A stretch of 36,093 nt of DNA from a bacterium (GTDB taxonomy: Bacteria; Bacteroidota; Bacteroidia; NS11-12g; UBA955), in assembly GCA_029945665.1 (NCBI GenBank), contig JAQSCZ010000032.1, positions 1-36,093 on the forward strand, written 5' to 3'. Below the pieces are notes generated by a model. That model was not told where the DNA came from. It did not search any database and saw nothing but the letters and a program-made list of their open reading frames with translations. A program made the position numbers and the translations under genes. This document shows positions 23,146-26,664 of this stretch, in pieces (within the stretch, counting starts at the first letter, position 1; every line of letters begins with the position of its first letter).

Positions 23146-24513
23146 TTACTTCCCTCCCAAATCAATCAACTCATCTCCTTTTTGATAAGGCATGTAGGTA
23201 AGAATAAATTGCAGCATCTCATCAGTCGTGCGCATGCTAGCGCCCCCATGGTCGTTGCGCTCACCAATTAGTTGAGGTGGATTGAATGGGTTATTGGGGT
23301 TTTTTATTGTATTGTCAAATACTGCTTCTACTCTTATGATACTGCCTTTCGGAATCTTAACAGGTTTGGTAAACGTATAAAAGTATTGCCACCTGAATTG
23401 CCATTGGGGTATTTTAATTAAGCGCACCGTATCGCCATTCGGTTTTAAAGCATAGGCTTTAAATTGTTGACCAATTAAATGCATATGAGGGTTAATCGTT
23501 AATACAGAAATATCGTTGTATATGGTCAGCTCTGTGATGTGTTTGGAGATGGCATTAGGTGCAATTTGTAAAGGTGGAACAATTGGCGCTACCCCATTGG
23601 TGCCTAACATTATTTCAAAGGTTGGACGCTCGGGTTTTTTATCTGCGAAATAAACATACAATTTAGAACTGTCAATCAGCGCTTTTTTACTCGGTCCGTA
23701 ATGAATATCATTGGCTATAAAAGTGCCATTCGGTGACAATATAAAGCCACCAATACCATTGGGGTATTTAACGCCAAAACTACCAGGTAAATAATTAAAG
23801 GCCGAATGGATGCGCTCCGGTTTGGTGCCGTTAGCATTTAATAATTCCAATCGATTAAATTGAGCAAGAAAATGAGAGTCATTTGTTTCTATAATGCGCT
23901 TACCTGCAAAAGGGTTTGTAAGTTGGTCGTATAATAATAAATGACCATTGGCATGGTGTACAATACTCGGCTGGCCTGCTACAAATTCTACCGACTTAAC
24001 ATATTGAGCCTGTTTAATTTGATATGGGATTTTAATTAAATAAAACCGATCAGTATTGTTGTTTTCAATGGTTACTGGTGGAACATCAATCACTAAATCA
24101 GGTGGTCCTAAAACCGATTGTCGTTTATAGGATAGCATGGGTTTTAATTGATTGGTATCGCCTGCTGATTTGCCTGTTGTGGCCCATTTTTGAATGAGTT
24201 CTATTTCAGATTCACTTAATAATCGCTCGTTAAGAAAATGGGTGTACAAACGGTCGGCTGGCCAAGGAGGCATATAGCCTGTGCGTGTAACAAAGGCAAT
24301 TGTTTTAGCGCGCTTGGCTACATCTGTATAAGAAATTAAATTAAATGGAGCACCTCCATTGGGTTGATGACAAGGGGTGCAATTTTTATAGACAATAGGG
24401 GCAATGTCTTTAGAAAAAGTAAGTTCTTTTTCGCCACATGAAACCAAACAAAAACTAGTCAGGCTCGATAAAACAGCCAACAGGAGTTGTTTCTGAAATT
24501 TCAATGGGTTCAT
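23146..24513 (-). CDS. Lipoprotein with a c-type heme site and a PHM-like copper type II monooxygenase core
   Basis: This 455-residue lipoprotein has a lipobox LVSC with Cys26 as the lipidated residue. Residues 32-115 are a cytochrome-c-like domain: heme motif CTPCH at 45-49 and Met81 in MPPW as probable axial ligand. Residues 150-440 resemble the two beta-sandwich domains of peptidylglycine hydroxylating monooxygenase. All six copper ligands have counterparts: His186, His187 and His271 for the first copper, and His343, His345 (HMH) and Met433 (DEML) for the second. It would therefore be a periplasm-facing or surface-exposed copper/heme redox protein; substrate unknown. Its start lies inside the redoxin gene (59-base overlap, different frame), so translation is likely coupled. 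Protein families of this make-up are known from Planctomycetes and Acidobacteria, to my recollection as fusions with the redoxin part. Confidence 0.82.
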   Translation of the reverse strand: MNPLKFQKQLLLAVLSSLTSFCLVSCGEKELTFSKDIAPIVYKNCTPCHQPNGGAPFNLISYTDVAKRAKTIAFVTRTGYMPPWPADRLYTHFLNERLLSESEIELIQKWATTGKSAGDTNQLKPMLSYKRQSVLGPPDLVIDVPPVTIENNNTDRFYLIKIPYQIKQAQYVKSVEFVAGQPSIVHHANGHLLLYDQLTNPFAGKRIIETNDSHFLAQFNRLELLNANGTKPERIHSAFNYLPGSFGVKYPNGIGGFILSPNGTFIANDIHYGPSKKALIDSSKLYVYFADKKPERPTFEIMLGTNGVAPIVPPLQIAPNAISKHITELTIYNDISVLTINPHMHLIGQQFKAYALKPNGDTVRLIKIPQWQFRWQYFYTFTKPVKIPKGSIIRVEAVFDNTIKNPNNPFNPPQLIGERNDHGGASMRTTDEMLQFILTYMPYQKGDELIDLGGK

Positions 24514-25000
24514 TTTTCTGCAACGAAATTAAGGCTTTCTCAATATAATTTATACTGGCTTGTGGTTTCTGTGAACTGATGCTTTCAAAACGATCGTCAA
24601 TTTTACCCGAGTATAAATATTGATCGCCTGAATGTTTCGAATAAATAAGTGCCTGAGGAGTGGTAGTAGCTCCCATGGTATGGGCAATTTGATTCGAACC
24701 ATCCATCACAATTCGGTTATAAGGAATGGAATCGTAAGCACAAAAGTCTTTGATGTCTTGCTCGGATTGTGGTCCCGAAAAAACATATTGAAAATTGTAA
24801 TACTGCCCGAATTTTTGATATGTGGATTTAAAACTGCCTTGGTATTTCTGACAAATGGGGCATTCGGCATTCAAAAAATAAATAATAGTTGTTTTGTTGA
24901 GGGTGAGTCCATTTGCAAATACTATCGAGGGAGTACTTGTTTTTCGAGGAGCCTCTTGGCAAGCTGTCAAAGCTATTAAAACAAGTGCAAGGTATTTCAC
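24455..25000 (-). CDS. Thioredoxin-fold (redoxin) lipoprotein
   Basis: This 181-residue periplasmic lipoprotein starts with GTG at 25000 and has lipobox LTAC with Cys14 lipidated. The thioredoxin fold carries CPIC (Cys47, Cys50) in NAECPICQKY and the cis-proline loop TTTPQALIY. It is likely to reduce or transfer disulfides outside the cytoplasm, or to deliver a cofactor; an exact role is not known. The C-terminus TTPVGCFIE, with Cys176, looks like the conserved junction that in fused homologues leads straight into the c-heme domain. Here a stop follows at once and the next gene has begun 59 bases earlier in another frame. A good promoter stands 26-54 bases upstream. It is divergent from the ECF sigma factor gene at 25107, with 106 bases shared between them. 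Confidence 0.85.
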   Translation of the reverse strand: MKYLALVLIALTACQEAPRKTSTPSIVFANGLTLNKTTIIYFLNAECPICQKYQGSFKSTYQKFGQYYNFQYVFSGPQSEQDIKDFCAYDSIPYNRIVMDGSNQIAHTMGATTTPQALIYSKHSGDQYLYSGKIDDRFESISSQKPQASINYIEKALISLQKNEPIEISETTPVGCFIEPD

Positions 25001-25106: not shown

Positions 25107-25688
25107 ATGTTCGTCCAACAGATACTATTGGAGGCCATTAATACCATAAGCGACCATGAATTGATGTCGACTTTTGTAAAAGAACAAAAGCCGGAAAATC
25201 TATTTCGCGAACTTATGGGGAGATATAAGGTGAAAGTATATTGGCAAGTGAGGCGAATATTAGTGCACCATGATGATGCGGATGAGGTAAGTCAGATTGT
25301 GTTTATTAAATTATGGCAGAATGCGGAGTCTTTTCAATTCAACAGTGCTTTGAGTAGTTTTATTTATCGCATTGCTTACAACGAAAGTATCACATTTTTA
25401 AAACAAAAAAAGCGGTTCCAATCATTCGATGATTTATTGGATGCCGATGGACATTATGCCAAAAGTATTGATAATGGTGTTGAAATGGATGGTGATCAAA
25501 TTGCTGCTAAATTGCAGAAGGCCTTATTGACATTGCCTGAAAAGCAAAGATTGGTTTTTAATTATAAGTACTTTGAAGCTATGCAATACGATGAAATAAG
25601 CGAGATAACAGGCACCTCAATTGGGGCACTTAAAAGTAGCTACCATTTTGCTGTCGATAAAATTAAAAAATATTTTAACTTTGATTAA
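25107..25688 (+). CDS. ECF-type RNA polymerase sigma factor (sigma-70 family)
   Basis: This 193-residue alternative sigma factor has only regions 2 and 4. Region 2 spans about 33-100: FRELMGRYKVKVYW, then DADEVSQIVFIKLWQ at 57-71, the core-binding DxxDxxQxxFxxLW pattern, and SALSSFIYRIAYNESITFLK facing the -10 element. Region 4 spans about 133-188, with LPEKQRLVFNYKYFEAMQYD at 143-162, then EISEITGTSIGALKS, the helix-turn-helix for the -35 element. The start at 25107 is kept because the conserved SDHELMSTF helix begins at residue 15; ATG 25164 would cut into it. It heads a unit with a membrane protein and a Spy-like protein, the arrangement of many sigma/anti-sigma envelope-stress operons. 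No standard promoter was found, consistent with self-activation. Confidence 0.93.
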   Translation: MFVQQILLEAINTISDHELMSTFVKEQKPENLFRELMGRYKVKVYWQVRRILVHHDDADEVSQIVFIKLWQNAESFQFNSALSSFIYRIAYNESITFLKQKKRFQSFDDLLDADGHYAKSIDNGVEMDGDQIAAKLQKALLTLPEKQRLVFNYKYFEAMQYDEISEITGTSIGALKSSYHFAVDKIKKYFNFD

Positions 25689-25725
25689 ACCAATTTACAA
25701 TTGAATAGTCCTAATAAAAGACACC

Positions 25726-26163
25726 ATGAACAAAGCAGATTTTGATAGCGGAATGAAACACAATGGATTCAAATTGCCCGATGGCTATTTCGAGCATTTT
25801 GAGGATAAGGTGGTTCAAAAATTGCCTGTAAAAAAAGGAGGTTTTATGGTGCCTATCATGAAAAAAATGAGCATTGCAGCAGCCTTGATTTTAGCGAGTG
25901 GATTAGCTATTTTTTTCTATAATCAAAATAAATCGGAATCCTTTAACATAGCGGATGCTCGCATCAGTGAATCCGATTATATAGAGTTTCAAAATACAAT
26001 TGACTTAAATGACGATGAATTTTCTGAAGTGGTTAGTACCCAATTTATAGATAGTTTGTATAAGGCAGAAGTATTGTCAGTTAATTTAAAGTCGAGTCAA
26101 ACCATCAAAGAAATGGAAGAAATAGAAGCGGGTTACAGCCCCTTAGATGAAATAGAAATTTAA
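25726..26163 (+). CDS. Single-pass membrane protein, probable anti-sigma factor
   Basis: This 145-residue protein lies 37 bases after the sigma gene. The N-terminal cytoplasmic part holds FKLPDGYFEHFEDKVVQKL at 15-33, a pattern I associate with Bacteroidota anti-sigma-like membrane proteins. One transmembrane helix spans about 48-66 (MSIAAALILASGLAIFFY). The rest, about 80 residues and strongly acidic, should lie in the periplasm as a possible sensor. There is no zinc-binding HxxxCxxC motif, so it is not a classical ZAS-type anti-sigma factor. Its role rests on position in the operon and topology; it might instead only be a membrane partner of the Spy-like protein. Confidence 0.65.
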   Translation: MNKADFDSGMKHNGFKLPDGYFEHFEDKVVQKLPVKKGGFMVPIMKKMSIAAALILASGLAIFFYNQNKSESFNIADARISESDYIEFQNTIDLNDDEFSEVVSTQFIDSLYKAEVLSVNLKSSQTIKEMEEIEAGYSPLDEIEI

Positions 26164-26169
26164 AATAGT

Positions 26170-26664
26170 ATGAAAAATATAATTACAATATTTACAATGG
26201 GTCTTGCATTGTTCATAGGAATTAAACCACTAACAGGACAAAACAAACCAGTAAAAAAAAATGCTGTAGAAAAAGAAGCAAAAATAAATGAATTGCGCAT
26301 TAAGTATTTTAATGAAAAATTAGTCTTGTCAGAAACGGAACAGAAGGATTTTTGGCCTTTGTATGATGATTATAAATTAAAGGATAAAAATCTCAGAGAT
26401 AGCTTTCAAAAAAAGTATAAGAAAAATTCACTCGTTTTTTTAGACGACAAGCAATCTGAAGCCTATTTAAATGCCCTATTGAAGTTGAAGGATGATCAAA
26501 ATGCCTTGTATCGCGAATATATTAATAAATTCAAAAAGGTGTTACCTGTTAAAAAAGTTGCCATGTTGCCAACACTTGAAAGAGAATTTAAAAAGGAGAT
26601 TTTACAAAAAATGATCCAATTTAAAAAAGATGGACACAAAGGCCAACTGCCCAGCGATGATTGA
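26170..26664 (+). CDS. Periplasmic Spy/CpxP-like stress protein
   Basis: This 164-residue exported protein has a signal peptide (about 23 residues, IITIFTMGLALFIGI, cleavage near TG-Q). The mature protein is helical and highly charged (many Lys, Glu, Asp). It has YFNEKLVLSETEQKDFWPLY at 46-65, the LTxxQ-like segment that in Bacteroidota relatives reads as two helices joined before FWPxYxxY. Spy and CpxP are small helical periplasmic proteins that bind unfolded proteins or tune a stress sensor. The gene starts 6 bases after the anti-sigma gene, so the three genes form one operon. A terminator follows at once. Chaperone activity is inferred from the family, and similarity is modest. Confidence 0.72.
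   Translation: MKNIITIFTMGLALFIGIKPLTGQNKPVKKNAVEKEAKINELRIKYFNEKLVLSETEQKDFWPLYDDYKLKDKNLRDSFQKKYKKNSLVFLDDKQSEAYLNALLKLKDDQNALYREYINKFKKVLPVKKVAMLPTLEREFKKEILQKMIQFKKDGHKGQLPSDD

Follow-up and report, generated by a model that had tools for sequence, protein, structure and literature searches.

How can a lipoprotein have its export signal inside the gene of its neighbour, and how does such an arrangement come about? These questions are raised by two same-strand genes in the window, the whole stretch of 36,093 nucleotides of Bacteroidota DNA that was analyzed. A redoxin gene is followed there by a gene for a c-haem and copper type II monooxygenase-like protein (PHM-like, called the PHM protein below), whose reading frame opens well before the redoxin stop. 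A sequence-only reading of this DNA had proposed that an ancestral redoxin-cytochrome-PHM fusion was split, and that overprinting on the redoxin tail gave rise to a new lipoprotein signal. Here, we examine both parts of this proposal by comparing the junction within the genus, within the family and among more distant relatives. We will argue that the overprinted signal is a genus-wide feature, that the splitting of a fusion is highly improbable as its origin, and that the overlap probably grew from two genes that were already adjacent.

The two genes and their junction

The upstream protein is, on the basis of its predicted structure, a PRX-like thioredoxin-fold protein with a CPxC motif (CPIC at 47-50). 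The profile search gave an AhpC-TSA match of 25.6 bits, just under the cutoff of 26, and the predicted model has a thioredoxin fold with a mean pLDDT of 92.8 and TM scores of 0.65-0.69 to 2ywi, 2cvb and 2ywo, which together with 3u5r are the nearest solved structures. The fold is shared with the PRX-like redoxins 2ywi, 2cvb and 3u5r, but the present redoxin differs from them in being a predicted lipoprotein, in its low identity to them (15-21%) and in having its tail overprinted by the next gene. Residues C47, P48, G175, C176 and I178 show no variation among 37 homologues. The C-terminus reads ETTPVGCFIEPD, followed by the stop TAG at 24457-24455. The ending TTPVGCFIE that had been read earlier is present, but the stop does not come straight after it, since the residues PD precede the stop.

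The downstream protein matches Cu2_monoox_C (PF03712) with 24.5 bits (cutoff 23) and carries a single haem motif, CTPCH. Inspection of the sequence also reveals the motifs HHANGH and HMH. The profile search found no match for the N-terminal domain at E 0.001, no NCBIfam family was matched, and the sequence comparison with solved structures gave no meaningful match. Judging from the domain content, the pair may constitute a putative redox chain leading from a thiol protein via a haem to a copper hydroxylase; a literature search for redoxin-cytochrome-PHM proteins found none. On the other side, the redoxin gene is adjoined by a divergent cluster (25107-26664), which contains the gene of an ECF-type sigma factor (Sigma70_r2 and r4) and those of two small proteins; an apparent membrane segment is present in one of these, and an apparent signal peptide in the other. 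This cluster is possibly regulatory.

The coordinates of the features are collected in Table 1. The overlap covers the conserved last 19 codons of the redoxin gene, and its length counts the redoxin stop. An in-frame stop sits only five codons 5' of the presumed PHM ATG, and the start can therefore not lie further upstream. The first 19 residues of the PHM protein, MNPLKFQKQLLLAVLSSLT, are encoded within the redoxin gene; SFCLVSC comes next, with the codon of the lipobox Cys at 24438-24436. In its sequence pattern this N-terminus is that of a lipoprotein signal, with a basic n-region, a hydrophobic core and a lipobox Cys. The sequence-only reading, which had the second protein start 59 bases before the redoxin stop in another frame, with the overlap encoding the basic start of this protein and the greater part of its hydrophobic core, up to just before the LVSC lipobox, is thus borne out for this junction. 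It had also assigned lipobox-type signals to both products, and these are found (LTAC and LVSC); two separately lipidated proteins would then be expected.

Table 1. Features of the redoxin/PHM junction, with coordinates in the window.
Feature	Position	Strand	Description
Redoxin gene	24455..25000	-	GTG start, 181 aa; predicted thioredoxin-fold lipoprotein, C47-P-I-C50, tail motif VGCFIE
Redoxin lipobox LTAC	24959..24970	-	Read from sequence
Conserved block within redoxin, just 5' of PHM ATG	24514..24550	-	Genus consensus AATTATAT..agAAtGC.TTAA.TTCGcTGc..aAAA
Redoxin/PHM overlap	24455..24513	-	59 nt; PHM in +1 frame of redoxin; 15/15 genus loci
Redoxin VGCFIE codons	24464..24481	-	+1 reading gives most of core LLAVLSS
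c-Haem + copper type II monooxygenase-like (PHM-like) putative lipoprotein	23146..24513	-	455 aa; PF03712
PHM signal peptide (predicted), residues 1-25	24439..24513	-	Basic start and most of hydrophobic core within overlap
PHM lipobox LVSC	24436..24447	-	Cys codon starts 16 nt past redoxin stop
Haem c motif CTPCH of PHM protein	24367..24381	-	Anchor for spacing measurements

Conservation and codon choice in the overlap

The genus was sampled with 17 genomes, and the junction could be read, with both genes, in 15 of them; most of the genomes in the analysis appear to be metagenome-assembled. All 15 readable loci keep the overlap, with a length of 59 nt in 13 of them, 56 nt in L006 and 53 nt in L014. 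With both genes on the same strand, the second in the +1 frame and both reading frames conserved, it belongs to the long phase-1 unidirectional overlaps. Without exception, the PHM start is an ATG with A at -3, the N-terminus has 2-3 K/R in its first 12 residues and no D/E in its first 20, and the lipobox Cys is present 10-19 nt past the redoxin stop. The identity of the PHM proteins within the genus falls to 56-58% relative to the window's protein, and the conservation is therefore not a matter of recent identity. A further locus (L002, G000:C122:61159-62367) is a second PHM paralogue, 32% identical and with its own signal peptide; no redoxin was found beside it.

The codons used in the overlap were compared with a baseline of 320 kb of sampled genus contigs plus the window, and with relatives. 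The redoxin stop is TAG in 15/15 genus loci, while in ORFs sampled from these genomes TAG accounts for 14-21% of the stops, and it is found in 9/49 relatives; likewise, the Glu codon of the motif is GAG in 15/15, against about 20% in sampled genome stretches and 8/44 relatives (the statistics on relatives ignore shared ancestry in both cases). TAG and GAG yield Ser or Arg in the signal, where TAA and GAA would yield Asn or Lys. The genus also lacks the codons by which a stop or an Asp would be introduced into the +1 frame, namely GGA (0/15 vs 17/49 relatives, p=0.007), ATA (0/15 vs 11/44) and GTA (0/14 vs 6/25), a comparison that again ignores shared ancestry.

Synonymous diversity in the genus is 0.32 in the overlap compared to 0.48 elsewhere (permutation p=0.0037, shared ancestry not removed), whereas the same place in other genera of the family, used as a control, has no synonymous drop (p=0.35). 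With the body of the same genes as internal control, 6 of the 12 informative codon columns in the overlap are without synonymous change, compared to 3 of 50 in the body (p=0.0009, here too with shared ancestry not removed).

We have also simulated the overlap by keeping the redoxin protein fixed and drawing its codons at random. On average, 43% of the draws leave the +1 frame open and 27% leave it open with the ATG in place, and the best ten-residue mean hydrophobicity is 1.23 for the draws and 2.20 for the observed sequences. The +1 reading of V-G-C-F-I-E runs through T-N-G, G-N-T, G-Y-T, T-Y-A and T-H-G, that is, mostly L/S/W, V/A/G/D, V/A, L/S and L/S. In relatives with a stop-free core, the mean Kyte-Doolittle value is 1.18 for this +1 core and -0.26 for the +2 frame over the motif; in the genus, the +1 core has a value of 2.44. 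The redoxin protein thus predisposes to a hydrophobic +1 reading, which the choice of codons then strengthens further. We conclude that the overlap is real and more than chance, and from the codon patterns both of its frames appear to be under selection.

These results bear directly on the explanation that the overlap is a mispredicted start, with the PHM protein starting at a downstream TTG and the +1 frame being open by chance. When genomes are annotated, long overlaps are indeed mostly due to mispredicted starts (PMC2478687), and in many genus members TTG codons lie 14 and 26 nt ahead of the stop. However, a TTG start inside the overlap would give a shorter signal without the basic region. 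The ATG, the basic residues and the hydrophobic core are kept in 15/15 loci, the 10-19 nt between the redoxin stop and the lipobox Cys are too little for a signal peptide, and the overlap is constrained in its use of codons. We therefore regard a mispredicted start as improbable.

Origin of the overlap

We now consider the relatives. The junction was read in 60 unfused pairs outside the genus, and in most of these the redoxin ends at or shortly past CFIE/CLIE, with the PHM signal 3' of the stop. In 26 of the 60 pairs, the PHM gene has an ATG whose overlap with the redoxin stop amounts to 1, 4 or 16 nt; other pairs have small gaps. Relatives from the same family have a gap or overlaps of 1-19 nt, with the signal wholly or almost wholly past the redoxin stop. 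Between the redoxin stop and the lipobox Cys there are 10-19 nt in members of the genus; g12 has 22 nt, the other 36 scored relatives have 32-98 nt, and the ranges of the genus and the relatives do not meet (p=2e-8, not tree-corrected). From the redoxin stop to the haem motif, there are 64-79 nt in the genus compared to 88-341 nt in the relatives. Since the stop-to-Cys stretch in the genus codes for only 3-6 residues, the PHM protein would have no signal peptide there without the overlap.

Two other genera have shorter overlaps in the same frame. In g12 (L022) there is a 35-nt +1 overlap with an ATG, and in g3 (L139), the sister of the genus, a 20-nt +1 overlap if a TTG is the start. Both are possible intermediates toward the long overlap. 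A shared origin of the +1 overlap in the genus (g1), g3 and g12 is not rejected (AU p=0.31), and the overlap may therefore have grown stepwise. A 68-nt open extension in L062 was not counted, because an ATG at -1 gives a complete separate signal.

Some further junctions were observed. At L039, L057, L061, L161, L169, L171, L176 and L177, from several other families, the GCFIE codons supply an ATG in the +2 frame for the PHM protein (GGA TGT TTT ATH GAR), with a 16-19-nt overlap and in many cases a basic start (for example MFYR). At L070 and L127, redoxin and PHM are in the same frame, parted by one in-frame TAA and a short gap. In genus g15 of the sister family (L020, L021, L023, L024, L028, L029, L031, L045), the PHM protein has its own signal, and the approximately 1.4 kb 5' of it revealed no redoxin.

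Another option considered was the one originally proposed, in which a stop or a frameshift divided an ancestral redoxin-cytochrome-PHM fusion and the new signal arose by overprinting. Fused forms were sought within Bacteroidota only, and the fused homologues mentioned in the sequence-only reading do exist: L088, L195-L203, L205 and L206 are fused redoxin-cytochrome c-PHM proteins, all from one family (f55). The layout occurs in 13 of 249 genomes of this family, one copy being frame-broken (L204, with the redoxin part out of frame with the rest). L098-L101 and L103-L107 were rejected as fusions, their long frames being merely upstream-open PHM frames, and plasmid searches for the PHM and the fused protein gave nothing useful. 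The fused proteins have the same domain order as the genus pair and the GC tail motif at the junction, and with about 24 residues from this motif to CxxCH they come near to the short gap of the genus. They differ in being one polypeptide without an internal signal.

The phylogeny of the PHM proteins, on the other hand, argues against fission. A first tree, calculated from 109 proteins, recovers the genus as a single clade and g3 as its sister. When only one fused row was included, it sat on a very long branch, and its grouping with the genus was not rejected (AU p=0.24). The final tree, calculated with a mixture model after adding eleven fused proteins and the broken copy, has 59 rows. In this tree, the fused rows form one clade (100/100), nearest to the unfused L207/L209 (98/92), while the genus is nested deep inside a 40-row clade without any fused member (100/99). 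Joining the fused rows and the genus into one clade is rejected (AU p=0.001), and both the sister genus and the other members of the family have unfused genes. The simplest reading is therefore that fusion was a separate, derived event and that the overlap began from two adjacent genes. The gaps, short overlaps and signals past the stop in relatives without the long overlap also speak against fission, which we consider highly improbable. The overprinted signal of the original proposal thus stands, in 15/15 genus loci, while its derivation from a split fusion is not supported.

Least probable of all is a programmed +1 frameshift that joins both proteins into one product, since, although the two reading frames stay open together for 56 nt and their relation permits joining, no shift site stands out among the conserved bases (by inspection rather than a formal test) and a joined product needs no conserved ATG, basic residues or lipobox.

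The origin that we favour, and hold to be likely, is the compaction of two adjacent genes in the genus ancestor, with the PHM signal moving onto the redoxin tail in the +1 frame. The redoxin and PHM genes would have been neighbours in one putative operon, with the PHM signal wholly or mostly 3' of the redoxin stop, as in the relatives. Some 40-60 nt between the redoxin stop and the lipobox would have been lost, and the PHM start would, presumably in this order, have shifted upstream to an ATG inside the redoxin gene (Asn/His-x codons, usually AAT GAA). The +1 reading of the redoxin tail P/A-V-G-C-F-I-E could then provide the hydrophobic core (LLAVLSS, LLVVLLS), and the redoxin codons and the TAG stop would now be chosen to keep both the redoxin tail and the lipobox export signal. 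Two separate lipoproteins would be made, with PHM initiation probably taking place within the translated end of the redoxin gene, which would couple the two.

The upstream block and comparison with known overlaps

It should be noted that part of the constraint has another cause than the second frame, as it extends 5' of the ATG. It reaches ca 35 nt upstream, over AAT GCN TTA AWT TCG, and TCG is used in 14/14 Ser codons of the block although it accounts for only 7-8% of Ser codons. The block is likely a translation-initiation region, and possibly also a promoter-like element. The -7 promoter box of Bacteroidota is TAnnTTTG, and we take the TAWWTTCG of the block to resemble it. No short upstream ORF with a start and ending at ATGA was seen by eye in the +2 frame 5' of the ATG. 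Shine-Dalgarno sequences are little used in Bacteroidota, and the starts of F. johnsoniae have a preference for A at -3, -6, -12 and -13 (PMC6847099). The A at -3 of the PHM start matches this context, and part of the upstream constraint fits a translation start region, but -12 and -13 are never A in the genus. A more far-reaching scenario is that the VGCFIE tail is a ready-made source of N-termini (the signal core in +1; in +2 the ATG of GGATGT... and basic starts like MFYR) and that in this genus TTAAWTTCG at the same time drives PHM expression. We consider this rather doubtful; if true, a redox motif, an export signal and a regulatory site would all be contained in a single stretch.

Long same-strand phase-1 overlaps that arose when the downstream gene was extended at its 5' end form a recognised class (PMC2542354, PMC3887535, PMC2478687). 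A NAT codon lending the ATG is a reported route to them (PMC2542354), and conserved overlaps just below 60 bp have been noted (PMC2478687). The present case shares the strand, the +1 frame, the ATG lent by NAT + G and the length with this class. It differs from typical members in that the overlapped part here appears to be an export signal, replacing one that lies past the stop in relatives, and in the codon-level evidence of dual constraint throughout the genus. The nearest functional analogue is the phage Rz/Rz1 spanins, for which overlapped, embedded, separated and single-protein forms are known (PMC6139136), and in which the N-terminal signal of a lipoprotein also lies in an alternative frame of the upstream partner gene. 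Here, however, the genes are cellular redox genes, the signal alone is overprinted and the proteins are unrelated. A limited literature search found no paper on the replacement of a cellular signal peptide by such overprinting. The genus overlap thus belongs to a known type, of which it is an unusual and well-supported example.

Being short and tolerant, export signals lend themselves well to overprinting. There is also a practical consequence, as gene finders that penalise long overlaps would truncate the PHM lipoprotein and lose its signal. Cases of overprinting in which relatives reveal the earlier state are uncommon. In this genus, the ancestral layout, possible intermediates, the changed codons and the remaining constraint can all be seen, and the locus may therefore serve as a test of how overlaps grow under selection.
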